From Pseudoalteromonas sp. NC201 (lineage in GTDB: Bacteria; Pseudomonadota; Gammaproteobacteria; Enterobacterales; Alteromonadaceae), in NCBI RefSeq assembly GCF_002850255.1, contig NZ_CP022523.1, positions 1,126,486 to 1,190,485 of the forward strand: DNA of 64,000 nt. The letters are read 5' to 3'. The number at the start of each line of letters is the position of its first letter. Position 1 is the stretch's first letter. A program made the position numbers and the translations under genes. Of the stretch, positions 24,947 to 44,471 are shown in pieces. The notes under the pieces are model-generated. The model had not been told where the DNA came from, made no database searches, and saw only the letters and a program-made list of their open reading frames with translations.

Positions 24947-24949
24947 GTT

Positions 24950-26200: not shown

Positions 26201-26226
26201 GACAAACTCCTAGTTGATTTTTTTTG

Positions 26227-26264: not shown

Positions 26265-26385
26265 TTTTTAATGATGATTGCAGAAAGCGAACACGAATTC
26301 AAATAAAAAATGTTTTTGCCTTGCACTGTGACTAACACAACACGCTCGTACCTTGGCGTGAACACATAACTTGGAACGATTAACC

Positions 26386-27729
26386 ATGAATAAAATTATC
26401 CTGCCAACACACTCGGCCATGTTGAAGGCAGACTATATTTTCGGCGTTGCGACTTCGTCATTTCAAATCGAAGGTGAGCGGCGTGGGCGTTGTGAGTCAA
26501 TTTGGGATAGGTTTTGTGAACATGATGGCGCGATAAAGGATAGTAGTAACGGTGATATTGCCTGTGAGCATATATCTAGGTGGCAGCAAGATGTTGAACT
26601 CATAACCAGTTTGGGGGTTGACGCCTATCGCCTTTCTATTTCTTGGCCAAGAGTAATGAATGATGATGGCACGGTTAACGATGCAGGACTTTCATTTTAC
26701 CAACAATTGGTCGATGCGTTGGTTGCTAAAGGCTTAAAAGTGTTTGTCACGCTATATCACTGGGACTTACCACAAGCGCTTGAGGATAAGGGCGGGTGGC
26801 TGAATCGAGAAACGGCTGTGGCGTTTGCACGGTATACCGAGGTGGTATGTAAAGCGCTTGGCGATAAAGTGTATGCGTACACCACGTTAAATGAACCATT
26901 TTGTAGTGCACATTTGGGGTATGAATTAGGTATTCATGCACCGGGCTTGCGCTCCCAAGCGGCGGGACGACAAGCAGCTCATCACCTGCTTCTTGCCCAT
27001 GGTTTAGCGATGCAAGTGTTAAGAGCGCATTGCCCAAATAGCCTCCATGGAGTCGTGTTGAATTTTGCCAATGCGGATCCTGTGTCTACAGCGCATTGTG
27101 ACGTGGAAGCGGCAAAAATCGCGGATGATTACTGTAATCACTGGTATATCAAGCCAATTCTTGAAGGGCAGTACCCAGATTTACTTGCCCAGCTCCCCAA
27201 AGACGTACAACCAGATATGCTAGCTGGAGATTTAGAGATTATTGCTGCCCCCATTGATTATCTTGGCGTGAACTATTACACCCGAAATATTTATCAATCT
27301 GATGGTAATGGATGGTATGAACAAGTTGAGCCTAGTGCCGAAACGCTCACTACAATGGGCTGGGAAGTCGTGCCAGACTCATTTTGTGCATTGCTTCGGG
27401 AGTTACATGCTGAGTACCAGTTGCCACCACTTTATATCACAGAAAATGGTGCTGCCTTTGACGACAAAATGGAAAATGGCGAAGTATTAGACGTGCAAAG
27501 GCTGGCTTACTTCCAATCTCACCTGCTCGCGGTTAATCAAGCAATGGAGCAGGGCGTTGATATTCGTGGCTACTTTGCATGGAGTTTAATGGATAATTTC
27601 GAATGGGCAGAGGGGTATACGCAACGCTTTGGTATTGTGCACGTTGATTATCATACTCAGCAAAGAACCTTAAAGGCGAGTGCAAAAGCCTACCAAACGA
27701 TGCTGTTTGAGCGTAAATCAAGTGTCTAA
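26386..27729 (+). CDS. GH1 beta-glucosidase
   Basis: 447 residues from the ATG at 26386 (GGAA upstream); an in-frame TTG at 26371 is less likely. Family opening FIFGVATSSFQIEG-like (YIFGVATSSFQIEG), acid/base Glu170 in TLNEP, nucleophile Glu353 in YITENGAAFDD, and SLMDNFEWAEGYTQRFGIVHVD near the end. No signal peptide, so it acts in the cytoplasm on imported glucosides such as laminaribiose or cellobiose. First gene of the GH1-LacI-transporter cluster. Confidence 0.95.
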   Translation: MNKIILPTHSAMLKADYIFGVATSSFQIEGERRGRCESIWDRFCEHDGAIKDSSNGDIACEHISRWQQDVELITSLGVDAYRLSISWPRVMNDDGTVNDAGLSFYQQLVDALVAKGLKVFVTLYHWDLPQALEDKGGWLNRETAVAFARYTEVVCKALGDKVYAYTTLNEPFCSAHLGYELGIHAPGLRSQAAGRQAAHHLLLAHGLAMQVLRAHCPNSLHGVVLNFANADPVSTAHCDVEAAKIADDYCNHWYIKPILEGQYPDLLAQLPKDVQPDMLAGDLEIIAAPIDYLGVNYYTRNIYQSDGNGWYEQVEPSAETLTTMGWEVVPDSFCALLRELHAEYQLPPLYITENGAAFDDKMENGEVLDVQRLAYFQSHLLAVNQAMEQGVDIRGYFAWSLMDNFEWAEGYTQRFGIVHVDYHTQQRTLKASAKAYQTMLFERKSSV

Positions 27730-27798
27730 AACTATGCGCATTTTTAGCCAAAATTGGTATAGTGCGCAGATACAACTGATGGAATAAAAGTAATAGAT

Positions 27799-28806
27799 AT
27801 GGCAACGATTTACGAAGTCTCAAAAGCTGCAGGGGTATCATTAGCCACGGTGTCACGGGTGATGAATGGTAATGCAAAGGTGAGTGACAAAACCAAAGAG
27901 AAGGTGCTCGCGGCAATGTCAGAGTTAGGTTATAAACCTAACGCCATCGCGCAATCTTTGGCTTCTAACCGCAGTAACAGTGTGGGGCTTATGGTATCTG
28001 AGCTACACGGCTCTTTCTTTGGTGACATGATGAGTACCATAGAGAGTACGCTAAGAACGGCGGGTAAACATGCCATTATTGCTGCGGGCCACAGTGATGA
28101 AGAAAAGGAACAACAAGCCATCGAATTTTTATTGGATAGGCGCTGCGATGCCTTAATTGTGCATGCAGAAGCAGTCAGTGATGAATATCTCATTGAGCTT
28201 GCGGGACGAGATGTAGAACTGGTGCTAGTGAACCGCCACATTCCAGAGTTGGCAGAGCGCTGCTTTTATACTGATAACGAACTGGGTGGATACTTAGCGA
28301 CTGAGGCGCTATTGCAGCGCGGACATCGAGATATCGCGTATATCAGTGGACCGTTATTTAAGCTTGACGCCAAAGCGCGTTTGGCTGGTCATCAAAAAGC
28401 CTTAGCTGAATACAATGTGTCATTTGATCCTAAGCTCTCATTTGAAGGCGGTTATCATGAAACCGATGGCATCGCGGGATTTAATCACTTAATGCAAACA
28501 GGGCAGCGCTTTAGTGCCTTGGTTTGCGCAAACGATGAGATGGCATCAGGTGCGATGACTGCGGCCAGAGAAGCTGGACTTGATGTCCCATCAGCGCTTT
28601 CCGTTGTAGGCTTTGACGATGTGTTATTTACCAAATATCTTTATCCAAAACTCACCACCATAGATAACCCTATTCGTAAAATGGGCAATGCGGCGGCGCG
28701 TTGGGTACTTAAGTATGTGTATAAAGAGAAGCACCAACCCGATGTAGAAAATCTCTACCCACCAACTTTAATCTTGCGCGATTCTATCGCCGTAAAAGCA
28801 GAGTAA
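27799..28806 (+). CDS. LacI-family transcriptional regulator of the glucan locus
   Basis: 335 residues. N-terminal helix-turn-helix (TIYEVSKAAGVSLATVSRVM) and hinge helix (NAIAQSLAS), then a periplasmic-binding-like sensor with SVVGFDDVLFTKYLYPKLTTI. The presumed operators are the AAGCGCTT palindromes at 13.6 and 26.2 kb. It lies 69 bases after GH1 and 6 bases before the SP transporter, so it is autoregulated if read from the same promoter. Inducer is probably glucose or a glucobiose (inference). Confidence 0.93.
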   Translation: MATIYEVSKAAGVSLATVSRVMNGNAKVSDKTKEKVLAAMSELGYKPNAIAQSLASNRSNSVGLMVSELHGSFFGDMMSTIESTLRTAGKHAIIAAGHSDEEKEQQAIEFLLDRRCDALIVHAEAVSDEYLIELAGRDVELVLVNRHIPELAERCFYTDNELGGYLATEALLQRGHRDIAYISGPLFKLDAKARLAGHQKALAEYNVSFDPKLSFEGGYHETDGIAGFNHLMQTGQRFSALVCANDEMASGAMTAAREAGLDVPSALSVVGFDDVLFTKYLYPKLTTIDNPIRKMGNAAARWVLKYVYKEKHQPDVENLYPPTLILRDSIAVKAE

Positions 28807-28812
28807 TAAGCG

Positions 28813-30408
28813 ATGACCAGCTTGTCGATATCCAATGCATTAAAGTACACCTTAATTGTATCGTTAGGCGGGTTTATTTTTGGCTTTGATGCGTCGGTGA
28901 TTTCGGGTGCAATTGGCTTTATCAGTGAGGCCTTTAAGCTCACCCCATGGCAGCAAGGGATAGTCGTGAGTGCACCTACCTTAGGAGGGTTGGTCGCAAC
29001 ACTTATTGCAGGACCGGTGGCAGACGCTATTGGCCGTAAGCAAACATTGCTGATGACCGCGTGTTTGTATTTTGTCTCCGCGATTGGCTCGGCTTTCGCA
29101 ACTTCGTTTGAAGCATTGGTGATTGCGCGTTTCATTGGTGGAATGGCATTTTGTTCTTTGATGGTGGCGCCCATGTATATTGCTGAGATCAGCTTAGCGG
29201 ATCAGCGCGGGCGTTTAGTATCGGTTAATCAGCTCAATATAGTCGTTGGCCTATTTATCTCCTATTTCACTAACTATTTCTTACTTCAGCTCAGTCATAG
29301 CGAAGCAATGTGGGTGTCTGGTTGGCAAATAGATACTCAAACATGGCGTTGGATGCTTGGTGTTGAGGCGCTGCCAGCACTGGCGTGGATTTTGTTGTTA
29401 CTGTTATTGCCACGAAGCCCTCGGTGGTTATTGATGAAAGATCAGCAGCTAGAGGCTAAACGCACATTAACGCGATTATTTGGTAGCAACAATGCACAAC
29501 AGCAACTTGATGCTATTCAAGCGGCGTTACCTAAACTGCAACTGAGTAGTTTGTCGCTTGCGCGCAAAATGGGCAGTTTGTTTAGTAAGCGACTTCGTGT
29601 CCCTTTGATGGTAGGGGTTGTGCTTGCCATCGCGCAGCAAGTCACCGGGATTAATGTGGTGTTTTTTTATGCCCCGACCATTTTTGAGCAAAGCGGTATT
29701 GGTACTGATGCTGCATTTATGCAAGCGATTTGGATTGGTCTGATCAATGTGGTTTTTACCATCGTTGCGCTATTGACCATAGATAAACTCGGACGGCGGC
29801 CATTGTTACTCATCGGGTTAACGGGCATCTGCTTTAGTATGGCGCTGTGTAGCTGGGGCTTTAAACAAGCAACTTATCAGCTAAATACAGCACATATTGC
29901 TGAAATTAAGACAGAAGTTGCCGATTTTCCTGTGCATGCATTAGCACCAATATTAGGCCAGGCTTTCACCTCCGACGTTGCATTTAATGACGCGATAAAA
30001 CAGCGTTTAACTGCAGATGAGTACCGGCAATACAAGTCAGTGATTTTCGCACACAGTATTAATATGCCAGCAAAACTGGTTCTGCTTGGGATTTCCCTTT
30101 TTGTCGCGTCGTTCGCGATGTCGCTGGGGCCAGTCATGTGGGTAATGTTTTCGGAGATATTTCCAAATGCAATTCGAGCCGTTGCGATTTCCGTTGTCGG
30201 TGTGATTAATAATGCCGCCAGTTTTACTGTACAACTAGTGTTTCCGTGGGAGCTTGAGTATTTAGGGGCAAGCACCACCTTTTTATTGTACAGCCTGTTT
30301 TCATTGCTTTCGTTTGCGCTGGTATTTTTGTTTGTGGAAGAAACCAAAGGTAAGAGCTTGGAGCAGCTAAGCGAAAGTTTGGAACCGAAACCTGACTATA
30401 CCAATTAG
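28813..30408 (+). CDS. SP-family MFS sugar transporter
   Basis: 531 residues with sugar-porter marks: GGFIFGFDASVISGA near the start, ADAIGRKQTLL, FIGGMAFCSLMVAPMYIAEI, QQVTGINVVFFYAP and VEETKGKSLEQL at the end. It carries a 70-residue loop between helices in the C-terminal half (about 355-425), which many Alteromonadales members have. Probably the glucose uptake permease of the locus. The last codons (Thr-Asn-stop) lie inside the R2 repeat that begins at 30398, so the native C-terminus has been replaced or trimmed by that insertion. Confidence 0.9.
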   Translation: MTSLSISNALKYTLIVSLGGFIFGFDASVISGAIGFISEAFKLTPWQQGIVVSAPTLGGLVATLIAGPVADAIGRKQTLLMTACLYFVSAIGSAFATSFEALVIARFIGGMAFCSLMVAPMYIAEISLADQRGRLVSVNQLNIVVGLFISYFTNYFLLQLSHSEAMWVSGWQIDTQTWRWMLGVEALPALAWILLLLLLPRSPRWLLMKDQQLEAKRTLTRLFGSNNAQQQLDAIQAALPKLQLSSLSLARKMGSLFSKRLRVPLMVGVVLAIAQQVTGINVVFFYAPTIFEQSGIGTDAAFMQAIWIGLINVVFTIVALLTIDKLGRRPLLLIGLTGICFSMALCSWGFKQATYQLNTAHIAEIKTEVADFPVHALAPILGQAFTSDVAFNDAIKQRLTADEYRQYKSVIFAHSINMPAKLVLLGISLFVASFAMSLGPVMWVMFSEIFPNAIRAVAISVVGVINNAASFTVQLVFPWELEYLGASTTFLLYSLFSLLSFALVFLFVEETKGKSLEQLSESLEPKPDYTN

Positions 30409-30559: not shown

Positions 30560-30676
30560 TAGCAAAACCCGCGATAAAATATTTTTCCATGTAATTTTTT
30601 TGTAAACGATTTTTCATGTTTGGGATTTATTATCTTTCTTGGACTAGTCCAGAAATTCACATTTAAAGGAAAGATA

Positions 30677-32425
30677 ATGAAATTACCCGTGCTTAGCAGT
30701 GCATTACTTGCACTTTCATTTACCGCAAGTGCAGATGCATTTGAAAACAAAGTATTGCTTATTGGTATCGATGGCCTGCAATACGAAAAAATTGGTGCCA
30801 ATAATACACCGAACTTTGATCGCCTATATCTAACTCAAGCTTACACTGGCGGGATCGCAAAAACACAAACACAGCAAAAAACCAAAAGTGGCCCAGGTTG
30901 GGCGACAATTTTAACTGGGGTTTGGGTGAATAAGCATCAAGTGCCGAGCAACGACTCAGGCCTAGCAAACAAAGCCTATCCCAGTCTTTATCGTTACATC
31001 GCAGAACATGATGCTAACGCCGATATCTCAAGTTTTAGTACTTGGGGACCTATTCATACACAATTCTTCAGTGACGATGTTGCCTTGATGGACAGGAGAT
31101 CGGAGGGAGGCAGCGACGACGATAATTTAAATAAAGCGCTGGCTACCTTAAACAGCGGCTCACCAGATTTTGTCTTTTTACATTTAGATGAACCGGACGC
31201 TGTGGGCCACAGCTTATGCTTTGGTTCTGCCTACAATAAATCGGTAGAAGATGCAGACAAGCGACTGGGTAAATTGCTCGACGCGGTTGAAGCAAGAGAG
31301 CAAAGCGGTGAGAACTGGTTGGTGATGGTCACCACTGATCATGGCCGTACACCGGTTGTTGGCTGTCATCATGGTGAGCAAACCGAGCCGGAAAAAACCA
31401 TCTTTATCGCCACTAACAAAGTGTTGAATAAAGAATTTAGCTCAAAAGATGTTAATCCTGCTAATACCGATTTCTCTGGTTTATATGGCTATCCGGCACA
31501 AACAGCGATTGTACCGACCATTTTATCTTACATGGGCATTGAAACAAATGTGCAAGCGGGTTTTGAAAGCACGCCGATGTACGGTGACTTAGGGGTTCGT
31601 AAACTCAATTATGGTAATAAACTATTTACGTGGCTAAATGGTGCGAATGTACAAACGCGTGTTTATCGAAATGATCAACTGATTGAAACTTTGCCTGCGG
31701 GTGTTGCCCAGTGGCAAGACCCGCAGCCCGTATCTGGCATCAATAACTATAGCTTTGAGCAACAGGGTGTGCATGTTGGTTATCGAGTTACCGAGCTGAA
31801 ACTCAGTGCGGCGCATCAGTGGCACAATACTAAAAGCTACTTTTTCTCTGAAGATGCACGCTACTGGCGTTACGATACTGTGTTAGATAAAACGGATGAT
31901 GGCTATCCGGTATCGGTGACTAATGGCAACTGGCCGGGACTTGGTGATTATGCAGAACAAATTCGTGCAAGTTTTTATAAAGACAGTGGTACGGTGTACT
32001 ACTTCCTATCGGATGGTCAATACCTAAGCTATGACGTACAGAGCGATAAGGTACGAGCAGGTTACCCTAAAACAATTGATAACAATACTTGGCCGGGACT
32101 TGCTGCCTACGCAAATAAAATAACCGCAACCCTTCGTTGGACGTCCGATAAGGTGTATTTCTTCCTAGATGATGGTCAATACTTACGCTATGACTTGGGA
32201 GATGACCGAGTGGACAGTGGGTATCCCAAAGCTGTCAACGATAATACTTGGCCGGGACTTGGTGCCTATGCGACAAAGATAAGTGCAGCATTAAAGTGGA
32301 ACGACACGCGTGCTTATTTCTTCTTAACTGACGGTCGCTATCTAAGATATAGCATTACTTTTGACAAAGTGGATGCGGGTTATCCTAAAGCCATTGATAA
32401 CGGTACTTGGCCCGGGTTGCAGTAA
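30677..32425 (+). CDS. Secreted alkaline-phosphatase-superfamily phosphodiesterase with hemopexin-like repeats
   Basis: 582 residues from the ATG at 30677 (AAAGGA upstream); the longer frame is unlikely because this start gives a signal peptide (MKLPVLSSALLALSFTASADA). Catalytic part about 20-375: GIDGLQ (metal Asp), KSGPGWATILTGVWVNKH (nucleophile region), HLDEPDAVGH, TTDHGRTP and GCHHGEQ (metal ligands), as in the nucleotide pyrophosphatase/phosphodiesterase group. Four repeats of about 50 residues follow, each of the form YFF..D..YLRYD....D.GYPK.....WPGL, which is the hemopexin blade pattern and would build one four-bladed propeller. The substrate is unknown. Single gene with its own terminator. 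Confidence 0.82.
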   Translation: MKLPVLSSALLALSFTASADAFENKVLLIGIDGLQYEKIGANNTPNFDRLYLTQAYTGGIAKTQTQQKTKSGPGWATILTGVWVNKHQVPSNDSGLANKAYPSLYRYIAEHDANADISSFSTWGPIHTQFFSDDVALMDRRSEGGSDDDNLNKALATLNSGSPDFVFLHLDEPDAVGHSLCFGSAYNKSVEDADKRLGKLLDAVEAREQSGENWLVMVTTDHGRTPVVGCHHGEQTEPEKTIFIATNKVLNKEFSSKDVNPANTDFSGLYGYPAQTAIVPTILSYMGIETNVQAGFESTPMYGDLGVRKLNYGNKLFTWLNGANVQTRVYRNDQLIETLPAGVAQWQDPQPVSGINNYSFEQQGVHVGYRVTELKLSAAHQWHNTKSYFFSEDARYWRYDTVLDKTDDGYPVSVTNGNWPGLGDYAEQIRASFYKDSGTVYYFLSDGQYLSYDVQSDKVRAGYPKTIDNNTWPGLAAYANKITATLRWTSDKVYFFLDDGQYLRYDLGDDRVDSGYPKAVNDNTWPGLGAYATKISAALKWNDTRAYFFLTDGRYLRYSITFDKVDAGYPKAIDNGTWPGLQ

Positions 32426-34371: not shown

Positions 34372-36534
34372 TTAAAACTTGTATTTCACGTTAGCGCTGA
34401 TAGTTCTACGTTGTCCATAGAAACAATCGCCACGGAACAAACAGCTGGTAATAACCGTTTTATCGGTGACATTATCGACTTGTAAACTGAATTGATATTG
34501 TTCAATGTCATAGCCAATCATCATATCAATAAGGTTAAAGTTATTAGTCACTAATTGCTGATGTAGTGTTTGGCCGTTTAATTCAACTGTGCGACTGCCA
34601 TCATAGGTTTTTCCTACATGTCGAATACCCGCTCCAAATTTTAGCCCTGGAAGCCATTCATCTGCGCGGTACGTCGCCCAAATTGAAGCTAAGTGCTTAG
34701 GTGTTGCTGAGAGCTGAGTATCATCTGTGATGAGCGTAACCAAATCTTGTGCTACATAGAGCTCTGTAGGTGACAGCGGAGAAACGTCTTGTTCCGTATC
34801 TAAATAAGAATATGCTGCATAGATATCAAGGTGCTGCCACTCAAGTTGGGCCTCAAGCTCTAACCCTTTGACCGCGATTTCACCGTCTTGTACTTCAAAT
34901 TCGGGGGAAACTTTCCGTATTTGATTTTTGTCTTTAATTTCAAATATAGATGCAGTGATAAGGTGTTCGGTACCCGTTGGTTGATATTTTAAGCCGAGTT
35001 CAATTTGTTCACCCTCTAGCGGTTTATATGCGCCACCTTGTGGTTTTTGTCCAAATACAGCCTTAAACGATTCTGAATAGCTAGCATAGGGCGCTATGCC
35101 ATTCTCAAATTGGTAAAGCAAACCGATCCGACCTGTTGTGGCATTCTGACTATTTTTGATTGCACCTGCCGTTTGCACCTGATTTGAAACATCATCATAG
35201 CGAAGTGCCGCATTGAGTACCCAGCTATTCACTTCAGCAGTAACTTGAGCATAAGCACCAAGCTGTTTATTGTTTAACGTGTTTTCAGGGTTATCGACAA
35301 CTGCTGTTGGTAACGCTGTACTTTGTCCATACACTGGGTTATACAAGTCGAGTGGAGCTGCAACGCCACGGCCGCGATCAGAATCTGTATCCGCATTTTG
35401 GTAATCAACACCTGATACCATAGTGAGTTTAACCGCATCCAGTTCCAAATATTTATGGAATTGAAGATCCATCGTCACACTACGTGCACTTGAGTCGGTG
35501 AGGCTGGCAATACGCTTAACAGTGCGTTTGTCTGCTTCAAATTTTGGTGGCCAAGAATAAATGGTACGGTACTCGGATGAACTATCGCTGTAGCGACCAG
35601 AAAACTTAACATGCGTGTCTAAATCAAAGCTGTGCTCAACAATAGCGGTGATCGCTTGTTGCTCAGTATCATATTTATCCCAGCCAGGCTCGCTGACGAA
35701 ACGCTCACTGGGAATTTGGCCGTATTTTGCAGGTAGAATAGTGCCTTCATGCGGGAAGAATTGCGTTGAAGAGCCTGATTCATTTCTCTGAAGGTTGGCA
35801 AGCAAGGTAATTTTAGTTTCATCTGAAGCAAGCCAGCTAAAGCTTGGTGCAAGCATCAGGGTGTTGTCATCAACATAATCGGTCTGTGTGCCGCTGTCTC
35901 GATACATGGCAACAGCACGTGCTTGATACTCTTGCTGCTCACCAAATGTGGTGTTGTAATCAAGTGCTAGTTGCTTACGGTCGTAGTTGCCCACTTGTGC
36001 CCAGATCTCACCTTCAGTGTCTGCTTTTGGTAATTTTGATACTGCGTTGACGATACCACCTGTAGACCCCTGTCCGTAAAGCACGGATGAAGGACCTTTT
36101 AAGATCTCTACGCTTTCAAGTGCATAAGGGTTAGTACGGGTATTGTTGTAATTGCCAAACAATTTTTGCAGGCCGTCAACATAGAGTAAGGGGTCGACGC
36201 CACGAATTTTAGACCAGTCGCCTCGAGTATCAACACCATATGGCCCATTATAAACACCTGCAACATACCCAATCGCATCTTGCAGCGTTTCTGCGCCTAA
36301 ATCAGAAATACGTTGTGCTGTTAATACAGAAACCGAAACAGGTGTTTTGACGATTGGAACTGCTGTTTTTGATGCAGTAGCGCTAACGTATGAAATTAGT
36401 CCTCTTGGGCTAACTTCGATGATTTCAATGTCGTCTTTATCTTGTTTTGTTTGCTCTTGTGCAATCGCAGAGCAAGACAATGCCAGTGCAACGCTGGCAA
36501 TAAGGCTTGGATATTTGTATTTAAATGAGCGCAT
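34372..36534 (-). CDS. TonB-dependent siderophore receptor
   Basis: 720 residues. Signal peptide (about 1-25), plug domain typical of TIGR01783 siderophore receptors (TPVSVSVLTAQRISDLGAET, YVDGLQ, LESVEILKGPSSVLYGQGST GGIVN), barrel of about 22 strands with a cysteine pair near the end (CLFRGDC) and terminal YKF. Takes up a ferric siderophore; which one is unknown. A Fur-like box lies 45-63 bases upstream, consistent with iron repression. Single gene; no biosynthesis genes adjacent. Confidence 0.92.
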   Translation of the reverse strand: MRSFKYKYPSLIASVALALSCSAIAQEQTKQDKDDIEIIEVSPRGLISYVSATASKTAVPIVKTPVSVSVLTAQRISDLGAETLQDAIGYVAGVYNGPYGVDTRGDWSKIRGVDPLLYVDGLQKLFGNYNNTRTNPYALESVEILKGPSSVLYGQGSTGGIVNAVSKLPKADTEGEIWAQVGNYDRKQLALDYNTTFGEQQEYQARAVAMYRDSGTQTDYVDDNTLMLAPSFSWLASDETKITLLANLQRNESGSSTQFFPHEGTILPAKYGQIPSERFVSEPGWDKYDTEQQAITAIVEHSFDLDTHVKFSGRYSDSSSEYRTIYSWPPKFEADKRTVKRIASLTDSSARSVTMDLQFHKYLELDAVKLTMVSGVDYQNADTDSDRGRGVAAPLDLYNPVYGQSTALPTAVVDNPENTLNNKQLGAYAQVTAEVNSWVLNAALRYDDVSNQVQTAGAIKNSQNATTGRIGLLYQFENGIAPYASYSESFKAVFGQKPQGGAYKPLEGEQIELGLKYQPTGTEHLITASIFEIKDKNQIRKVSPEFEVQDGEIAVKGLELEAQLEWQHLDIYAAYSYLDTEQDVSPLSPTELYVAQDLVTLITDDTQLSATPKHLASIWATYRADEWLPGLKFGAGIRHVGKTYDGSRTVELNGQTLHQQLVTNNFNLIDMMIGYDIEQYQFSLQVDNVTDKTVITSCLFRGDCFYGQRRTISANVKYKF

Positions 36535-36578
36535 GATTAATCCCTATGATCTAAGTTTGCGCAAATGATATTGTAGAT

Positions 36579-36597
36579 GAGAGTGATTATCAATATT
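36579..36597 (-). promoter_or_regulatory. Candidate Fur box of the siderophore receptor
   Basis: On the reverse strand AATATTGATAATCACTCTC matches about 15 of 19 Fur consensus positions, with the GATAATCA core intact, upstream of the receptor ATG at 36534. Confidence 0.6.
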
Positions 36598-36660
36598 ATT
36601 GTTCTGTAATTTGCAAATATTACAAAGCATTATTCTAGTTACAACATTCGCCACGTTTTG

Positions 36661-36819
36661 TTAATTGTTGTGCCCTATACTTAAGCGGCGCTCAGCAGCA
36701 CAGCGCTTTGAGCAGTATTTAACGTTTTCCCAATCTCTTTGCCATTTTTTCCGCCAATAAAACGGGCGTTTGCAAATAGGGCATACTTTATAAGGTAGGT
36801 TTACTTTCTTATGAGCCAT
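36661..36819 (-). CDS. DUF2256 zinc-ribbon-like small protein
   Basis: 52 residues: [20 protein letters not shown] then [20 protein letters not shown], ending RLSIGHNN. It matches the short DUF2256 family by KxNLPxKxCxxCxRPFxWRKKW and the second Cys pair (Cys13, Cys16, Cys36, Cys40), a likely zinc site. Elsewhere these genes usually sit beside photolyase/cryptochrome genes; none is here. The R2 element starts 9 bases upstream of its ATG, and no ribosome-binding site is visible, so the insertion may have removed the native leader. Confidence 0.85.
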
Positions 36820-36916
36820 TTAGGGTTGATACCAATTAGTCTTAATACTTGCTCAATTTGAAGGAGCCAATCTGACGCTAACTGAGTTAAAAATTTCTCA
36901 TTTAGAACAACTAAAT

Positions 36917-37159
36917 AACCTGAGCTGCGGATAATTAATGCCTTTCTAGCAGCCAGTTTTAGCGCTAACTGCGTTGAATTCACTTCCAATAGCCAGCTAT
37001 TGGTGCGTAAATTCGCCTTGCTTACAGGATGTAGGTACCTTAGCGAGAGCAGGACGCGGAAGCGGTGTTTTCCCTAAAACTCTCTGGATAGACAAGGAAA
37101 AAACTAAGTTGTGCTTTAGCAACAATGAGTTGGAACATTCCTTATCCAAACCTCAGGTT
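36917..37159 (+). repeat. R3 element nested inside R2
   Basis: 243 bases with ends AACCTGAG and CTCAGGTT, flanked by AAAT on both sides (target duplication likely). Contains the segments GATAATTAATGCCTTTCTAG, CCAATAGCCAGCTATTGG and TCTGGATAGACAAGGA. A relative in the opposite orientation lies at 52528-52733. It carries its own R4 unit at about 37025-37068. Confidence 0.8.
37025..37068 (+). repeat. R4 short repeat, first copy
   Basis: Unit with GGATGTAGGTACCTTAGCGA then GAGCAGGACGCGGAAGCGG. A second copy, differing at a few positions, is at about 37180-37222. The first lies inside R3, the second inside R2. Confidence 0.7.
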
Positions 37160-37179
37160 AAATAGCAAAATTTTCGTCT

Positions 37180-37222
37180 TGCCTACACGGATGTAGGTAC
37201 CTTGGCGATAGCAGGACGCGGT
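37180..37222 (+). repeat. R4 short repeat, second copy
   Basis: GGATGTAGGTACCTTGGCGA followed by TAGCAGGACGCGGTAGCGGG; absent from the intact R2 copy at 30398, so it is a separate insertion. Confidence 0.7.
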
Positions 37223-37329
37223 AGCGGGGTTATCGACAAGATTTTCTCGCCTCAAAATAGATCACTTAATTAAGCCAATTGGTATTAGTCATTTTTAGTA
37301 TTCATACGGTAGTGATGAAAAGTGAGATC

Positions 37330-37363
37330 AAAAAAGCCCCATAGCGAGCGCTGTAGGGGCTTT
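37330..37363 (-). terminator. Terminator of the sulfur fusion gene
   Basis: On the reverse strand AAAGCCCC pairs with GGGGCTTT, with inner pairing, followed by TTTTTT, 20 bases after the stop codon. Confidence 0.88.
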
Positions 37364-37382
37364 AGAAAGGAAACAGTGAAGG

Positions 37383-39650
37383 TTATGCTGATGGGATGAG
37401 TGCATACCCTCCTTTTAAATGTCCGATATTATTAAAGCCGAGTCGTGCTAGCGCCTGTGCTGCAACTTGTGATCTACTGCCGCTGCGACACACCAACACC
37501 AACTCTTTCGTCTTGTCTTGGCTTTGTTTGCAAATAAAGTCAGTAAGGCGGGTTAGTGGCACATTTTGATCAAACGCTCTGTTGTGATTTAGAGCATATT
37601 CATGCGGTTCACGTATATCAATTAACAGCACACCTTCGTTGTTAGCGATGTGAGCATTGAGCTCTGTTGTGTTGTACTCGTGCAATTCAAATTGGTTTTT
37701 ATTGCAAACCGTTGCGCCACACATGATCTCACTGCCAGCCTCATCAACAATGTTTTTGTCTATTTGCGCCTTTTTCTCAACAAATACATCAACCGCAATG
37801 TCATGTTGAAGCACACTATTTAATAGTAAATTACGACTACACTCTGCCGCTAGGGTAGTTGCAAACTCATTGTTGTAGTCGTGACTTGGGCATAACAAGG
37901 TATCTGTGTCGATGAGCTGAGCAAGTAACTGAATGCTATTCAGCATCGCTTTTGGTGAGCTGGTGGAGAAGTTGCTTCTACCTAATGCCCCCATCAGGAT
38001 TAGGTCACCACAAAAAACGTATCTGATGGCGTACTTATCTTGTTGTTGCTCCAATAGCATAAAGGTGACGCTATCTTCCGTATGCCCTGGGGTGGTTAGT
38101 TTTGCAAGACGGAAATGACCAATAGCTAGCGCTTCAAGTGACTGGCCTTTATAGTCAATTTGTGTAGTTTGAGTTGGCCAGCCTAAATGGTCGCATGTTT
38201 GTTTTGGTAAATTCAGTGTGGTTCGACTCGATTCGTGATCGGCGTGCCCATGTGTATCAAGCGCAGCGAGCAGTGTTAGCTGCTGGCATTCTAATATCGT
38301 ATTAAGACGTTCTACCAGCTCAGGAAGTGGATCGATAATAATCGCCGTTTTTGACTGCTTATCAGCAAACAACCAACAGCATGCACCACCCACTTTAAAT
38401 TGTACTAGGCCGTCAAGCGCTTCTTTATTGTTAACGCCATTCGCCGCTTGCATGAGACAACTGTGACCGAGTGCCTGAGCACAATGGAGAATGCGCTCAC
38501 ACGCCGCGTCTATTTCAGTTTGGGTTGTGGCAGGACCAAAAGACAGTCGAATAGCCGATTCGCTTTGCCATGCAGGGAGTCCCATGGCATCTAGCACAAA
38601 ACTGCGCGTTACCTTTGAACTGCACGCTGAGCCCGAGCTGACACGGATGTTTGCTGCGTCAAACAAATCCATGATTTCTTTTGAGCTAAATCCCGGAATT
38701 GCAAAGTTTAGTGTAGTCGGAACGCTATTACTGAAGTGATTATTAAATACAATAGTCGGGAACGCATCTTTGAGCGTTTGTGCTAGTTGATTTCGAAAAT
38801 CGTGTAGTTTATCTACGCTTGCAAATTGGCTGTCATTTTCTTTTAGCAGTTCATCAAAAATCACATTCAGCGCGGCAAGGCCAGGTAAGTTTTCTGTCCC
38901 TGAGCGTAAACCGCTCTCTTGACCACCGCCAGCAATAAATGGCGTAAACGGCGCGGTTTCTCGAATATAAACAAAACCGATGCCTTTTGGTGCATAGAGC
39001 TTATGACCGCTAAAAGGTGCGTAGTCAATAGTTGTTCTCGCTAGGTTTAAATTGCGTTTACCCAGCGCCTGAACACAGTCAACCATCCAAAAAATATTTG
39101 AATTATGCTTTCTTATTACGTTTTCTAATTGGTTCAGGTCTTGATATACACCGGTTTCATTATTGACAGCCATAGTGCAAATCATTAGCGCATTAGGTAC
39201 TTCATTTGCGATAAACGCTAAATCCAGATTACCTGCACCATCAACCGGAATGGCTTTGACATCGGCATTAATTTCTAAAATTTGATTCCAATGTTTAAGT
39301 GACTCTGGTACTGCTTTGTGTTCAGTTGCCCCGTAAAGTAGTGTATATTTTTTGTTTGGCTGTATCTTCTTTTTTGCTTCACAAAGGGCTGATAGTATGC
39401 CGGTTTGGATGCCCTCGGTTGCGCCACTGGTGAAAATCACTCGACCATGACCAGAACCCAGCACCGCACGTGCTTTTTGGCGAGTTTGTTCCATCAGTTG
39501 CTTAGCCTGTAGGCCTGTAATGTGGCTGCTGCTCGGGTTACCAAACATGGTTTTCATGGTAACCAATGCTGCGTCTGCTGCTTGCTCTAATACAGGGGTT
39601 GTTGCATTAGCATCTAGATATATTTGAGGTAACACCGATTCTACTGTCAT
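37383..39650 (-). CDS. Cysteine desulfurase / persulfide-dioxygenase-like / rhodanese three-domain fusion
   Basis: 755 residues from the ATG at 39650 (AAAGG 8 bases upstream); an in-frame TTG at 39674 is less likely. Domain 1 (about 10-395) is an NifS/IscS-type cysteine desulfurase: IYLDANATTP, ATEHKAV, PLP Lys217 in FSGHKLYAPKG, and persulfide Cys343 in SSGSACSSK. Domain 2 (about 415-625) is an ETHE1-type metallo-beta-lactamase fold: THGHADH (His467, His469, Asp471, His472), TPGHTEDS (His523), CGDLILMGALGRSNF (Asp549) and CPSHDY (His590). Domain 3 (about 665-755) is rhodanese with Cys721 in VCRSGSRS. Cytoplasmic. Predicted: take sulfur from cysteine as persulfide, oxidise it to sulfite, with sulfur transfer by rhodanese. 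The divergent TauE/SafE exporter supports this. Function of the fusion is inference. Confidence 0.88.
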   Translation of the reverse strand: MTVESVLPQIYLDANATTPVLEQAADAALVTMKTMFGNPSSSHITGLQAKQLMEQTRQKARAVLGSGHGRVIFTSGATEGIQTGILSALCEAKKKIQPNKKYTLLYGATEHKAVPESLKHWNQILEINADVKAIPVDGAGNLDLAFIANEVPNALMICTMAVNNETGVYQDLNQLENVIRKHNSNIFWMVDCVQALGKRNLNLARTTIDYAPFSGHKLYAPKGIGFVYIRETAPFTPFIAGGGQESGLRSGTENLPGLAALNVIFDELLKENDSQFASVDKLHDFRNQLAQTLKDAFPTIVFNNHFSNSVPTTLNFAIPGFSSKEIMDLFDAANIRVSSGSACSSKVTRSFVLDAMGLPAWQSESAIRLSFGPATTQTEIDAACERILHCAQALGHSCLMQAANGVNNKEALDGLVQFKVGGACCWLFADKQSKTAIIIDPLPELVERLNTILECQQLTLLAALDTHGHADHESSRTTLNLPKQTCDHLGWPTQTTQIDYKGQSLEALAIGHFRLAKLTTPGHTEDSVTFMLLEQQQDKYAIRYVFCGDLILMGALGRSNFSTSSPKAMLNSIQLLAQLIDTDTLLCPSHDYNNEFATTLAAECSRNLLLNSVLQHDIAVDVFVEKKAQIDKNIVDEAGSEIMCGATVCNKNQFELHEYNTTELNAHIANNEGVLLIDIREPHEYALNHNRAFDQNVPLTRLTDFICKQSQDKTKELVLVCRSGSRSQVAAQALARLGFNNIGHLKGGYALIPSA

Positions 39651-39773
39651 GATTGTGCCTTTAGGTATAAGCAAATTACCGATATAACAAAAAGTAATAA
39701 GTAATTATTTATAGTTATAATAAGGGAGATAGGCGTGCGTTTCAACTATTGAGGATGTGTTTATTGCATTCAG

Positions 39774-39819
39774 GTGTATTCACTTTTAATGTAAATTTAA
39801 TTTGAAAAAAGTGTATTCA
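39774..39819. promoter_or_regulatory. Direct repeats in the sulfur-locus divergent promoter
   Basis: GTGTATTCA occurs at 39774-39782 and 39811-39819 (37 bases apart), with a further ATTCA just before the first. The gap serves both the fusion gene and the TauE gene, so a shared regulator is plausible. No regulator gene is adjacent. Tentative. Confidence 0.3.
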
Positions 39820-39905
39820 TCATGTTTAATTGCGTTCGCTCAAATACTAGATGAGTATGGTAACGGGTATTAATAAGGAAAGGCTCTTTGAGTAATGGAT
39901 GAATA

Positions 39906-40808
39906 ATGTTGCAACGAATAACAAAACCGACGATGTGGCCCTTATTTTTTACACTGGGTGTGTACGCTACGTTGATCTGGGTACAAGGCTTTTATCAAGC
40001 ACTTGGTCAAATTATCAGTGAATCCCATATTGCGCTGACCATGGCGTTGGGATCGTTTGTGGCAGGTGGAACGGCATTAGGCGGTGGCGCCGTCGCCTTT
40101 CCTGTGATGACTAAATTATTAGACATAGATCCCGCTACGGCCAAGGTATTTTCTCTCGCGATACAAAGTTTTGGTATGACAGCGGCGACCATTACTATTT
40201 TCTGTCGCCGTATTCCGGTATATAAAAACGTTATTTTAATGGCGTTGCCAATGGCTGCGCTTGGTGTAACGCTCAGTCTATTGTATATCGCGCCTCTGGC
40301 ACCAAGGCTCCTAGTTAAGTCTATTTTTAGTTTTTTGTTGCTCTGCTTTGCACTAACACTGATTTTGAGATGGTGGCGTAAGGCACATCATCAACCTAGC
40401 AGTGAGTTTATCCAACCTAAAATGCTACGCTTTATGGCCGTAGCGTTAATCGGAGGTATAGCTAGTGGATTAGTAGGGTCGGGTGCAGATATTGCACTCT
40501 TTGCCTTGTTGGTGATTGCTTATAATGCAGATGTGAAAAAGGCGACTGCAACCTCCGTCGTGGTGATGACGTTTACCTCATTGATTGGAAGTAGCATTAA
40601 TGCGTGGCACCTCAATACGATCAGCAGTGAAATAAATGGCTATTTGCTAGCGGCAATACCGATTGTGGTCGTTGGTGCTCCATTAGGCGCTTATGTTTGT
40701 TCAAAAGTAAAAGTGGGGCATCTGGTCAGTTTTCTTTTAGTCTTGATTGGGCTTGAAGTGAGCTTTACCTGTTATGAGTTATATCCGACGCTGCTAGGAT
40801 TGTTCTAA
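39906..40808 (+). CDS. TauE/SafE-family sulfite/organosulfonate exporter
   Basis: 300 residues with about eight helices. Family marks: GSFVAGGTALGGGAVAFPVMTKLLDIDPATAKVFSLAIQS in the first half and GGIASGLVGSGADIALFALLVI with ATSVVVMTFTSLIGS in the second. Such permeases export sulfite, sulfoacetate or related anions. Divergent from the sulfur fusion gene with 255 bases between, suggesting it exports the sulfite produced there. ATG at 39906; the ribosome-binding site is weak. Confidence 0.85.
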   Translation: MLQRITKPTMWPLFFTLGVYATLIWVQGFYQALGQIISESHIALTMALGSFVAGGTALGGGAVAFPVMTKLLDIDPATAKVFSLAIQSFGMTAATITIFCRRIPVYKNVILMALPMAALGVTLSLLYIAPLAPRLLVKSIFSFLLLCFALTLILRWWRKAHHQPSSEFIQPKMLRFMAVALIGGIASGLVGSGADIALFALLVIAYNADVKKATATSVVVMTFTSLIGSSINAWHLNTISSEINGYLLAAIPIVVVGAPLGAYVCSKVKVGHLVSFLLVLIGLEVSFTCYELYPTLLGLF

Positions 40809-40955
40809 TCTAACGCGGTTTACAAAATTGGGTAAGCCGCGAAGCGAGCAAATAACGAAGTTAGATTACGCTCGCTAAATAAAAATATCCATCTGTTACA
40901 CTTTATTATCATCTTTTCGTGTATTGCAAAAAACATTACATTTTTAAAATGTAAA

Positions 40956-40970
40956 TGATAGTTGTTATCA
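40956..40970 (+). promoter_or_regulatory. Candidate Fur box of the second siderophore receptor
   Basis: TGATAGTTGTTATCA differs from the 15-base Fur motif TGATAATNATTATCA at two positions. It lies 106-120 bases before the receptor ATG. Confidence 0.65.
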
Positions 40971-41075
40971 TTACTATTGTTTTGCTAAACTTCGCCCCCT
41001 CTCTGATAAATTATTTTCTGAAATAGGTATTTGGCTTATTTCACCACTATCCAATTGCGTAGTTTGGAGTTAAAA

Positions 41076-43487
41076 ATGCAATACTCTCGCTCTTCTGTTC
41101 TTTCCGCCTCATGCGTTGCGGTTAAGTTGGCTTTACTAGGTGCAAGCACAACGGCTTTTGCTTCTGAAGACACAGAAAAAATCAGTGTTTATGGCAAACA
41201 TAATAAAATTATTTTGCAATCTGGAACTGCAACTAAGTCCAATATGGATCTTATGCAGACCCCCGCCGCGGTTGTTGTTGTTGACAAAGAGCTACTAGAT
41301 TCGCAAAGCGCAGCGACTTTACAAGAAGCACTACGCAACGTAAGTGGTTTGTCTCAGGCCGGTAATAACTACGGCATTGGTGATTCACTAATGGTTCGTG
41401 GCCTAGGCGTAAACTATACCTACGATGGTATGTATGGTGGTGCTGACTTAGGGAACAGCTTTAACCCAACACGCTCCTTAACCAATATCGAAAGTATTGA
41501 AGTGTTAAAAGGTCCTGCTACAGGCCTTTATGGTATTGGTGCTGCAGGTGGTGTAGTTAACTTAGTTGAGAAAAAGCCACAGTTTGAACAAGCGCTCTCA
41601 ATTAACGGTAAAGTGGGCGCATGGAATACTTATGGTTTGGGCGTTGATTTTACAGATGCAATTACTGACAAGCTTGCCTACCGTGTTGTTGCAAACCATG
41701 AGCGTAGCGACGGCTATCGAGATCTAGAATCTAATAGAGACGAAATCTATGCAAGCTTACGTTTCGACCCAAGCAGCGAGCACTCATTTTTACTTTCAGC
41801 GGCCTATATTGATGATTCGCAACAAGTAGATTCAATTGGCGATCCGGTACGGATTATTAACTGGGATAGCATTACTGGGCAACCAGGACTGGTTACAGCT
41901 GATCGCTTGCCAAATGACCCACAATATGATGCTGAGAAAGGTAAGTGGTTAGGTGTACAGCTGAATGATGAACAGCGCGCGCAACTTGCTGAGTCAATTC
42001 GTATTGGCGATGGCCTAAAGCCTTTTAATCTTGGCGATGGGAATCTGATTTCTCCTTTATCTCGTCCTAATGAAGGTGAAGAGTTACGGATAAAGCTTCG
42101 TCACGATTGGTACTTAAATCGCAACTCGAAGCTAACCCAGCAGGTATTATGGCGTAGCTATGATTCTGATTTTGTTCGCCAAACTGGTGCTTACAATTAT
42201 GTTTATTGGGAGCGCAATGGTGTGATCAATGCAAACCCAAGAGCTCCGCTTGTGATTGATGATGTGCTATATCCTTATGCGGCTCGCCGTCAAGAGTATC
42301 GCCGTCAAGTTGCCAGCGAAAAAACTTGGCAGTACTTTGCTGATTTACAGTTAACTTGGGATATGGCTTCTTTGAGCGGTGAGCATTTAGTCAGCGTTAA
42401 CTATGAAAATCGTGATATGCGCTTAAAAAGTTGGTCTGCATATGATGCCGATGGTAAAGGTTCAATTCCATATATCTTAGACATTCGCAGTCCAAACTGG
42501 CCAACAGGCGAATTCGAGGATTATGACCCATCGCTACGTAGTAATTACGATAAAACGCTTACGGCGTATGGCATTAGTGCACAAGAAGTGGTGTATATCA
42601 CTGATGCACTAACTGCTCGTGCTGGTCTTGCATATACTAGCGTTGAACAAAAATATCAGCATTTAGGTACTGATCGTTCACCAGAAGAGAGTGAAGAGCT
42701 GGACACGGATGATGCAGGTATGACGTATAATATTGGCTTGAATTATCAAGTGACCTCTCAGCTTTCTGCTTTTGTAAATATGGCAAAAGGTCGTACTGCA
42801 TACAGTGTACTGGGTAGTCTAGAAAATGAAGCTGATGCAAATCGTAAAAACAGACCTGACTCTGAATCTGAAACGTTAGATATTGGTGTGCGTTTTACTG
42901 CCTTTGATGAAGATTTATTGGGCTCATTAGTGTGGTTCGAAACTAAACGCACAAACCTAATGTATAACAATCCTGAGTATAACGAGCAGCCAGGTGACGA
43001 CTACAATGTCAGCGTTCCACGCTATTTCTTCGATGATGAAGATGAGTCAAAAGGTGTAGAGCTTGACTTAAATTTAGCATTGAACGACCAAATCAGTGTG
43101 AATATGAACGCGACTTATCAAGATGCTGTTGAGATCCGTTCGAATGAACGCTCAGGTCAAATGAAAGGGGTACCGAAAAAGTTTGCCAGCACGTGGGTGA
43201 AGTATACCCAGCCAGCTAATTGGTTTGGAGGGACTCTAGAGTACAGTCTTGGAATTAACTATGAGAGTGAACGAACAATTAATTCTGTTTCTTTCGGCCT
43301 GCCTACGGCAACTATTGATGGTTATACTCGCTGGGATGCTGCAATTAAGTTCGATGCTGAGCAGTTCGATATTCAGCTAAACCTTGAAAACCTAACTGAC
43401 GAGCGTTATTACAGTAAAGCATTGTTCTTAGGTGGCACGCCTGGCAACGAGCGAAATGCTAAATTGAGCTTTAACTATAGGTTCTAA
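41076..43487 (+). CDS. TonB-dependent siderophore receptor
   Basis: 803 residues from the ATG at 41076 (GGAG upstream). Signal peptide (about 1-29, ending TTAFA), TonB box region EKISVYGK, siderophore plug (TPAAVVVVDKELLDSQSAATLQEAL, MVRGLGVNYTYDG, IESIEVLKGPATGLYGIGAAGG), barrel ending LSFNYRF. Ferric-siderophore uptake; ligand unknown. A Fur-like box lies upstream and a strong hairpin follows. The adjacent AraC-type gene converges and may or may not regulate it. Confidence 0.92.
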   Translation: MQYSRSSVLSASCVAVKLALLGASTTAFASEDTEKISVYGKHNKIILQSGTATKSNMDLMQTPAAVVVVDKELLDSQSAATLQEALRNVSGLSQAGNNYGIGDSLMVRGLGVNYTYDGMYGGADLGNSFNPTRSLTNIESIEVLKGPATGLYGIGAAGGVVNLVEKKPQFEQALSINGKVGAWNTYGLGVDFTDAITDKLAYRVVANHERSDGYRDLESNRDEIYASLRFDPSSEHSFLLSAAYIDDSQQVDSIGDPVRIINWDSITGQPGLVTADRLPNDPQYDAEKGKWLGVQLNDEQRAQLAESIRIGDGLKPFNLGDGNLISPLSRPNEGEELRIKLRHDWYLNRNSKLTQQVLWRSYDSDFVRQTGAYNYVYWERNGVINANPRAPLVIDDVLYPYAARRQEYRRQVASEKTWQYFADLQLTWDMASLSGEHLVSVNYENRDMRLKSWSAYDADGKGSIPYILDIRSPNWPTGEFEDYDPSLRSNYDKTLTAYGISAQEVVYITDALTARAGLAYTSVEQKYQHLGTDRSPEESEELDTDDAGMTYNIGLNYQVTSQLSAFVNMAKGRTAYSVLGSLENEADANRKNRPDSESETLDIGVRFTAFDEDLLGSLVWFETKRTNLMYNNPEYNEQPGDDYNVSVPRYFFDDEDESKGVELDLNLALNDQISVNMNATYQDAVEIRSNERSGQMKGVPKKFASTWVKYTQPANWFGGTLEYSLGINYESERTINSVSFGLPTATIDGYTRWDAAIKFDAEQFDIQLNLENLTDERYYSKALFLGGTPGNERNAKLSFNYRF

Positions 43488-43592: not shown

Positions 43593-44471
43593 TTATTTAA
43601 TGTAACAAGTGATACGAGTGAGAAGCTCGTGTGGTGGTGTATCTCTAACATCGTTTAAGTATTCTTCGATAACAGGCACATCGGCAGGTTCGAACTCACT
43701 GTTAGGTAACCATTGTCCAAACAGGTACTCGTAAGGCGTTTCAAGAGAAGCATAGTCACCTTGGTAAAGTAGGCTAGCTGTTTTGCCGGATGGAATGGCG
43801 AATTCACAAAGCCCCTCTGGGAGAGATGCGGTTGTCTTTGGCACTAAAATTGTTGCCATTGATTTTAGTTTGCTTTCCTCGACGGTTTTTGGGTCGTCAA
43901 AATATACACCAAAGAAACGCGTATCCGCACCTAATAAGCCTTGTTGCTGCGCCAGTACGTTTAATTTTTCAAATGCTTGACCGATTTGCATGTAATCGCC
44001 ATGGTGCTCAAGTCCGATTAACGTCATTTGCTCATTACTGCCTATTTCTACATTAAACATATTCGAATCCTCTTCTACCTTAATGATATAAAACTCGGCC
44101 GCACAGCCTTTTGCCTTGGCCTGTTCATGTTGGCGAAATAGGCTAGGTGGTTGCTTATATCGTTGAGAAAATGCTCGGCTAAACGCTTCAATACTTGCAT
44201 AACCGGTCTGCTCAGCCACCTTTGCAATGGAGTCTTGGGTGCGAATTAACATACCTGCAGCAACATGTAGTCGCATTCTTCTTACGGTTGCATTGATGGT
44301 TTCCCCAGCGATTGAGCGATAAACACGGTGAAAGTGATAAGTCGACATATGGCATTGATCAGCAAGCGTGATCACATCAAGTTCGCGATTAATATTGTTA
44401 TAGATGTAATCAATAACAATATTTAAGCGAGTAGTGTATTGGCTCAGGGTTGTTGCTTTTCTAGTCATCAT
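43593..44471 (-). CDS. AraC-family regulator with GyrI-like effector domain
   Basis: 292 residues. The DNA-binding part comes first (about 15-115: ADQCHMSTYHFHRVYRSIAGET and IAKVAEQTGYASIEAFSRAFSQRYKQPP), followed by a GyrI/SbmC-like small-molecule domain (about 140-290, MTLIGLEHHGDYMQIGQAFEKL to DVPVIEEYLNDV). Same order as Rob/MarA-type multidrug-response regulators. Targets unknown. Its ATG lies close to the mini R2 repeat at 44503. Confidence 0.88.
   Translation of the reverse strand: MMTRKATTLSQYTTRLNIVIDYIYNNINRELDVITLADQCHMSTYHFHRVYRSIAGETINATVRRMRLHVAAGMLIRTQDSIAKVAEQTGYASIEAFSRAFSQRYKQPPSLFRQHEQAKAKGCAAEFYIIKVEEDSNMFNVEIGSNEQMTLIGLEHHGDYMQIGQAFEKLNVLAQQQGLLGADTRFFGVYFDDPKTVEESKLKSMATILVPKTTASLPEGLCEFAIPSGKTASLLYQGDYASLETPYEYLFGQWLPNSEFEPADVPVIEEYLNDVRDTPPHELLTRITCYIK

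Follow-up and report, generated by a model that had tools for sequence, protein, structure and literature searches.

Within a 64,000-nucleotide stretch of the genome of Pseudoalteromonas sp. NC201 (contig NZ_CP022523.1, positions 1,126,486 to 1,190,485; hereafter the window), a single gene encodes a 755-residue protein that joins a cysteine desulfurase (CD), an ETHE1-type persulfide dioxygenase (PDO) and a rhodanese (Rhd), in that order. Comparison with relatives suggests that selection preserves the two end steps and that the step between them is a side branch: the desulfurase and the rhodanese appear to be the constant core of the family, and the dioxygenase an element retained in some lineages and changed or lost in others. 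The protein is probably a relay for persulfide, fed by cysteine, in which an optional PDO branch leads to sulfite. The three-module fusion is real and not due to chance, since all of the 120 best listed relatives (of 6185 with E ≤ 0.001, a total that includes plain desulfurases) contain both PF00266 and PF00581, many of them with a conserved middle site.

Three modules and their active sites

The open reading frame is read from an ATG; a TTG 24 nucleotides upstream would extend it to 37383-39674 and 763 residues. Its features are as follows, with the roles of dioxygenase residues taken from excerpts of PMC6060420 and the residues placed by alignment.

37383..39650 (-): fusion gene, open reading frame with ATG start, 755 residues (763 with the TTG)
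38481..39623 (-): cysteine desulfurase module, residues 10-390, group I, NifS/IscS-like (PF00266, 188.7 bits; TIGR03402 NifS, 268.3 bits)
39000..39002 (-): Lys217, lysine for pyridoxal phosphate (PLP; SGHK), Lys in all rows of two alignments of relatives
38622..38624 (-): Cys343, desulfurase catalytic Cys (SSGSAC), Cys in all rows of the two alignments
37716..38381 (-): ETHE1-type metallo-beta-lactamase (MBL)/persulfide dioxygenase module, residues 424-645, collinear with BpPRF and ETHE1
38235..38252 (-): HxHxDH motif, residues 467-472, His467 being the first iron ligand
38082..38084 (-): His523, second iron ligand
38004..38006 (-): Asp549, third iron ligand
37971..37979 (-): Arg558-Ser559-Asn560 of GRSNF, Arg corresponding to ETHE1 R163 and Asn standing at the position of the paired Asp of ETHE1 and of the A. 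caldus PDO (AcPDO)
37881..37883 (-): His590 of SHDY, equivalent of AcPDO H171
37719..37721 (-): Cys644 of MCG, the conserved type I PDO Cys (ETHE1 C247, AcPDO C224), aligned to 'kCG' of BpPRF
37401..37667 (-): rhodanese module, residues 662-750 (PF00581, 42.9 bits)
37488..37490 (-): Cys721, rhodanese catalytic Cys (CRSGSRS loop), Cys in all rows of the two alignments other than L157, L059 and L207, which are cut or split copies

Pfam recognises Aminotran_5 at residues 10-382 (188.7 bits) and Rhodanese at residues 662-750 (42.9 bits) of the 755-residue protein, and Lactamase_B scores 19.8 bits on the middle module, under its cut-off of 22.7. In a search against solved structures, the PDO-rhodanese fusion (PRF) BpPRF (5ve3) was collinear with residues 424-749 (E 2.2e-20), and human ETHE1 (4chl) aligned with residues 424-611 (E 9e-18). 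The N-terminal module is a group I cysteine desulfurase by its PF00266 score and by H111, D191, Q194, K217, C343 and R368, which are invariant in three tables of genus sequences and whose roles we take to be those of a desulfurase (PLP lysine, His and Asp/Gln contacts, catalytic cysteine). It scored 268.3 bits against the NCBIfam NifS equivalog TIGR03402 (cut-off 530.75) and 209 bits against the IscS equivalog (cut-off 643.2), and thus represents a separate subfamily. With desulfurase and rhodanese in one chain and both catalytic cysteines present, the protein is a CD-Rhd fusion; with PDO followed by rhodanese, collinear with BpPRF, it is likewise a PRF, carrying an extra N-terminal desulfurase. 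The Blh model NF040641 gave the 755-residue protein 28 bits, below its cut-off of 625.

By alignment to ETHE1 and BpPRF, the middle module contains the 2-His-1-Asp mononuclear iron triad of type I PDOs (H467, H523 and D549), corresponding to H57, H113 and D130, the iron ligands of AcPDO in the excerpts of PMC6060420. Of the hydrogen-bond-network and glutathione-site residues and the conserved Cys, D471, H472, R558, H590 and C644 are present (AcPDO D61, H62, R139, H171 and C224), but the equivalent of AcPDO D141 is Asn560. The same excerpts report that the AcPDO variants D61A, H62A and H171A are inactive, that R139A keeps 0.4% and D141A 1.5% of activity, and that C224 (ETHE1 C247) is essential and is conserved in type I enzymes. 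Asn560 is found in the window protein and in the other 24 sequences of the genus table with a complete site; the residue is Asp in 119 of 120 relatives of a Planctomycetota query (P0123-P0242). The closest solved relatives of the module are BpPRF and PDO-type proteins (66-78 bits), as against 31-33 bits for the GloB-type hydrolases 2xf4 and 6rz0; 2gcu, which is titled a hydrolase, scored 65.8 bits and is listed as ETHE1-like, under 2CGU, in the excerpts of PMC6060420.

The original prediction, made from the letters of the window, had described this same chain, with Lys217, Cys343, His467/His469/Asp471/His472, His523, Asp549, His590 and Cys721 as its active-site residues. The open reading frame, the Pfam matches and the collinearity with BpPRF and ETHE1 bear out the three modules, each residue stands at the number given, and the middle module is, by sequence, a PDO of the ETHE1/PRF type. 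The statement that all key residues are present holds for every residue named, but it overlooked Asn560, which takes the place of an Asp in ETHE1 (D165) and AcPDO (D141).

Desulfurase-rhodanese and dioxygenase-rhodanese fusions are known separately, and the three-part chain is a variant of them. CD-Rhd fusions (PMC8931425, PMC11763069), PDO-rhodanese and Rho-PDO fusions (PMC12856154, PMC13047784) and a PDO together with TauE (PMC5823870) are described in excerpts of these papers. No account of a desulfurase-PDO-rhodanese chain, nor any study of this sulfur step in the genus, was found in the open-licence literature (most subscription papers lay outside the search, and absence from print is not shown), and the words fusion and dioxygenase do not occur in a review of bacterial desulfurases (PMC8300815). 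A close analogue in architecture is the CD-Rhd of Pseudorhodoferax sp. Leaf274 (PMC8931425), which likewise has desulfurase and rhodanese in one chain (C334/C466 there, C343/C721 here) but is set apart by its description, the excerpts mentioning no dioxygenase module, and by its demonstrated activity. According to excerpts of PMC8931425 and PMC12319549, sulfur from cysteine passes through both domains of the Pseudorhodoferax fusion to roGFP2 in vitro by thiol-persulfide exchange, and H2S is released with glutathione. BpPRF (5ve3, 5ve4) shares the order of PDO and rhodanese over residues 424-749, with CRAGGRS in place of CRSGSRS, but has no desulfurase and has Asp at the position of Asn560. Blh of the bigR operon, in excerpts of PMC5823870, and CstB also join a PDO to a sulfurtransferase, and the bigR operon includes a TauE-related transporter; Blh, however, is a DUF442-ETHE1 protein, and the excerpts name no desulfurase for Blh or CstB. 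AcPDO (PMC6060420) shares the iron triad and the equivalents of H171, R139 and C224 (H590, R558 and C644), but it stands alone, whereas the module of the window is embedded in a fusion and its clade has Asn560 for D141.

Constant ends and a changing middle

Genome searches at an E cut-off of 1e-100 found the fusion in all 108 genomes of Pseudoalteromonas, with a single match in each. In the family it occurs in 96 of 246 genomes, spread over 17 of 52 genera; in the order sample it occurs in 32 of 295 genomes, spread over 10 of 99 genera; and another genus of the order (g326, presumably Shewanella) has it in 47 of 97 genomes. In the class, where up to two candidates per genome were scored, it was found in at least 1 of 369 genomes; in the phylum around a Planctomycetota metagenome-assembled genome, with up to five candidates scored per genome, it was found in 1 of 199, the centre genome itself. 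The Planctomycetota query had 4674 relatives, and among the best 120 of these the few with a name are Planctomycetota, Fuerstiella, Mariniblastus, Adhaeretor and Verrucomicrobia. The fusion is thus also present in Planctomycetota and Verrucomicrobiota, and in the former phylum it is rare, though the query has at least 120 relatives, most of them without a name.

Three states of the dioxygenase site occur within the genus. In 26 of 108 genomes, among them that of the window, the site is complete (A); in about 56 it is altered but retains the iron triad (B); and in 25 it is gone or deleted (C). A truncated copy of A type (G046) falls outside these totals, so that the site is altered or gone in 81 genomes, or 82 with that copy. 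All 55 B sequences keep H467, H469, H523, D549, H590 and C644; H472 is replaced in every one (by Arg in 50), D471 is mostly Glu (38/55), and R558 is mostly Asn (48/55). The catalytic residues of the two ends, in contrast, stay: K217, C343 and C721 are kept in 25/25 A, 55/55 B and 25/25 C sequences of the genus and in 119-120 of the 120 Planctomycetota-query relatives, and the six desulfurase residues named above, together with R680, C721 and R722 of the rhodanese, are invariant in the A, B and C tables (L091, L157 and L174 set aside).

The Planctomycetota-query relatives keep the PDO site at 119-120 of 120 sequences per position, and the complete form is therefore likely to be ancestral. A further clade of the family (15 sequences) shows free variation at D471 and H472; it keeps D549, R558 and H590 in 15/15, and H467 and H523 in 14/15. 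On a tree of the desulfurase part (130 rows without L157, L174, L059, L091 and L207; a quick method, with long branches flagged), at least ten changes are needed to explain the three site states, and each of the 13 Planctomycetota-type rows has the complete site.

Median ratios of nonsynonymous to synonymous substitution (dN/dS), calculated from non-independent pairs with L110 also set aside, are 0.09 for the PDO part in A (11 pairs), 0.097 in B (60 pairs), 0.063 in long C forms (5 pairs) and 0.396 in short C forms (7 pairs); those of the desulfurase part are 0.036-0.09 across groups, and those of the rhodanese part 0.04-0.083, with 0.158 in the short C forms. The PDO modules of short C forms look relaxed, and the rhodanese there slightly so too. 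The long C forms (L165-L173, 785-802 residues) have no intact metal site and a middle domain that is constrained (0.063, as above), possibly reflecting a new use of the fold. In two genus genomes the gene is split into two frames (L157, 563 and 187 residues; L174, 136 and 625 residues), which could be sequencing errors or fresh breaks.

A stand-alone PDO of the Blh type (272-365 bits, or a split hit in G061) is found in 2 of 26 genomes with the complete site, in 34 of the 56 in group B and in 4 of the 25 in group C; the genome with the truncated copy, G046, has none. The NF040641 cut-off of 625 is exceeded in none of the 108 genus genomes and none of 14 control genomes. Takeover by such an enzyme was not adopted as the cause of site decay: 43 of the 81 altered genomes are without one, and kinship is uncontrolled in the comparison.

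Genomic places and neighbouring genes

Neighbourhoods were read from flanks of at most 2.5-6 kb (1.5 kb in L251-L277), with 60 of the 84 family hits outside the genus fetched; the 242 loci represent fewer genomes, as L009-L083 and L084-L250 overlap in at least six. The usual place of the gene in the genus is behind an AI-2E transporter gene, on the same strand and at a distance of 17-186 nucleotides, in 70 of 82 loci (L109-L190). A small TusA-like gene precedes the AI-2E gene in 71 loci, overlapping it in all but one; its product keeps Cys-Pro in 71/71 and scores 25.6 bits against PF01206 in L109, just under the cut-off of 28.6. The same tusA-AI2E pair is present in 27 genomes with a window-type copy, where the fusion is not the next gene in 26 (lacI is, in 19 of these) and the contig ends in one. 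The pair thus does not need the fusion, since it stands without it.

Excluding the window's own genome, the window-type copy lies on a small replicon in 6 of 7 assemblies of three contigs or fewer, versus 1 of 23 for B and C together. Window-type sequences group with Shewanella and Colwellia rows in the tree of the desulfurase part, and a single genus clade is rejected (p-AU 0.0224; 23 of 50 rows). The simplest account is that the window-type copy is a transferred copy that replaced the other; as one copy has apparently replaced another, the function seems to be maintained, and the presence of one copy per genome hints at a step that cells require and whose dosage is important.

At least 98 (71 + 27) of the 108 genus genomes have the TusA-like gene beside the AI-2E gene, with or without an adjoining fusion. 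The TusA-like gene lies at 6436-6654(-) in L109 and encodes 72-92 residues in most relatives, and the second Pro of CPxP is missing in the aligned rows shown.

In three genera whose fusions have lost the PDO site, the gene directly before the fusion, on the same strand and 3-108 nucleotides away, is nqrM, in 16 of 16 fetched loci (L191-L206, which are 16 of 25 hits in those genera; Pfam was run on L191 and L196, and NqrM was assigned by similarity in the others). The gene order there is an NqrF-like oxidoreductase gene, apbE (14/16), nqrM and the fusion. Of the 32 genomes of the order sample that carry the fusion, 30 have NqrM, as against 229 of 295 overall, a co-occurrence that is suggestive only. 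These neighbours of PDO-less forms, nqrM and the TusA-like gene, point to sulfur delivery, and the nqr-linked fusion is a candidate sulfur donor for Na+-NQR.

Next to the fusion gene of the window lie a partly conserved intergenic region and a permease gene:

39651..39905 (no strand): divergent intergenic region, its fusion-side half conserved (best at about 39682-39724), even in TauE-less L097, among the window and 10 chosen relatives
39906..40808 (+): TauE/SafE-family permease, 300 residues, divergent (PF01925, 82.4 bits, cut-off 32.6), with a homologue in the corresponding position in the P. piscicida group

The divergent permease gene was thus correctly recognised in the original prediction, and its linkage is not unique to the strain. 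Nine of 108 genus genomes, counting that of the window, have a window-type TauE divergent from the fusion. Paraglaciecola/Colwellia loci have a different TauE 86-93 nucleotides downstream of the fusion and on its strand (Pfam was run on L023 only), and one more lies upstream of the fusion in L244. In total, a TauE homologue falls within the flanks of 19 of 242 loci, and TauE was rejected on that count as the defining partner of the fusion: the link exists, but it is rare.

The remaining neighbours of the fusion look unrelated (subtilase, DUF386, murein endopeptidase, FadR-type regulator, shikimate kinase), and Rfam gave no match up to E 1 over 36500-41100. Two TonB-dependent siderophore-type receptors flank the fusion/TauE pair, at 34372-36534(-) (TIGR01783, 264 bits, cut-off 223.5) and 41031-43487(+) (184.4 bits, under the cut-off), an arrangement that recurs in relatives such as L010-L013. 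Farther out, the window encodes an AraC-type regulator with an SbmC-like C-terminal part (43593-44471(-); RobA, 60.1 bits, far under the cut-off of 380) and a protein in which hemopexin repeats are joined to a type I phosphodiesterase/nucleotide pyrophosphatase domain (30620-32425(+)). A cluster of GH16, TonB receptor, GH3 with Exop_C, major facilitator superfamily and sugar transporter, and LacI genes (13814-30408) looks like a locus for beta-glucan use.

A probable persulfide relay and its alternatives

The chemical steps and acceptors of the relay are what we infer from the domains, residues, conservation, loci and distribution observed. Cysteine desulfurases convert cysteine to alanine and carry the sulfur as a cysteine persulfide; here, the group I desulfurase would act on L-cysteine and leave the persulfide on Cys343, from which sulfur would pass, by analogy, to Cys721 of the rhodanese, directly or via glutathione, to be handed on to an acceptor. 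In complete members the iron module may oxidise glutathione persulfide with O2 to sulfite, and the rhodanese may combine sulfite with persulfide to give thiosulfate, in both cases as an analogy with PRF and CstB would suggest. The TauE permease of the P. piscicida group, a member of a family (PF01925) that carries several anions, may export the anion. With all steps running, cysteine + O2 + H2O would yield alanine + sulfite, a putative activity that is plausible in this strain.

Several observations weigh against the relay with its optional branch. The window PDO may itself be weak, since Asn560 stands in for an Asp that, when changed to Ala in AcPDO, left 1.5% of activity in the excerpts of PMC6060420. 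The B module is under purifying selection despite its replaced AcPDO-essential residues, as would be expected of a domain put to a new use rather than of one that is simply dispensable. The rhodanese has changed too, scoring 16 bits in L191, under the cut-off, and showing the raised dN/dS (0.158) of short C forms; and to speak of PDO loss rather than gain depends on rooting a quick, long-branched tree with Planctomycetota rows.

The original prediction had proposed a unit converting cysteine to sulfite, with TauE as exporter. As a general function this does not hold, TauE being present in 19 of 242 loci and 81 of the 108 genus genomes having a dioxygenase site that is changed or missing; cysteine-to-sulfite conversion cannot be the family-wide selected role because that site changes while desulfurase and rhodanese residues stay. 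The earlier interpretation is therefore partly supported: right on architecture and too narrow as a family role. In the narrower form of a dedicated enzyme against cysteine overload or sulfane sulfur, yielding alanine and sulfite for export by TauE, it is unlikely. The complete site of the window, Asn560 apart, the divergent TauE in nine genus genomes, the different TauE directly downstream in Paraglaciecola/Colwellia loci and the pairing of TauE with a PDO-sulfurtransferase in the bigR operon (excerpts of PMC5823870) are consistent with it, but in most of the genus the gene stays after the site has been altered or lost, and TauE is rare. Classical cysteine dioxygenase (PF05995) is found in just 1 of 246 family genomes, which also counts in its favour, but this lack holds with or without the fusion (present in 96 of 246), and such complementarity was set aside as uninformative. 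A primary role in sulfur supply for a cofactor or carrier, especially maturation of Na+-NQR (the [2Fe-2S] of NqrD/E) or a TusA-like carrier, with the PDO as safety drain or regulator, is possible though rather doubtful. It is favoured by the 16 of 16 nqrM loci in three genera, by the 70 of 82 genus loci with the fusion after the AI-2E gene and the 71 with a TusA-like gene before that gene, by the frequency of NqrM among fusion genomes (30/32 versus 229/295), and by excerpts of PMC12174285 that hold NqrM necessary for the intramembrane [2Fe-2S] cluster of Na+-NQR. The nqr link, however, is confined to three genera and may be a single inheritance, the p of 0.012 for co-occurrence takes no account of kinship, 199 genomes of the order sample have NqrM but no fusion, the tusA-AI2E pair has no adjoining fusion in 26 of 27 genomes, the PF01206 score is under its cut-off, and no paper among the matches listed joins NqrM and a cysteine desulfurase.

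A more elaborate scheme, quite unlikely as it stands, is an oxygen-gated sulfur valve on the respiratory chain, in which desulfurase and rhodanese would supply the intramembrane [2Fe-2S] cluster of Na+-NQR (with NqrM), the iron module would burn surplus persulfide to sulfite under O2, and the B triad, its network residues replaced under continuing purifying selection, would be an O2- or iron-sensing regulatory site and no longer an oxygenase. That the MBL module is no oxygenase at all, being a glyoxalase II-type hydrolase or a structural spacer, is highly unlikely: the GloB model TIGR03413 gives 68 bits (cut-off 200.8), AcPDO-essential residues are replaced in B and the site is lacking in C, but BpPRF and PDO-type proteins score higher than the GloB-type 2xf4 and 6rz0, and B keeps the facial triad H467, H523 and D549 in 55/55 with Asp471/His472 replaced, a pattern that argues against a two-metal hydrolase. 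On structure scores and this residue pattern the two-metal reading was disfavoured.

On the favoured reading, a persulfide relay with an optional dioxygenase branch, one chain could span the path from cysteine to sulfite, and nature provides many versions in which that middle step is whole, changed or absent, which make the choice between delivering and disposing of sulfur directly testable. The single copy in each of 108 genomes, with an apparent replacement at another locus in one lineage, indicates a maintained sulfur step in Pseudoalteromonas, and the linkage to nqrM offers a candidate sulfur source for the intramembrane cluster of Na+-NQR.

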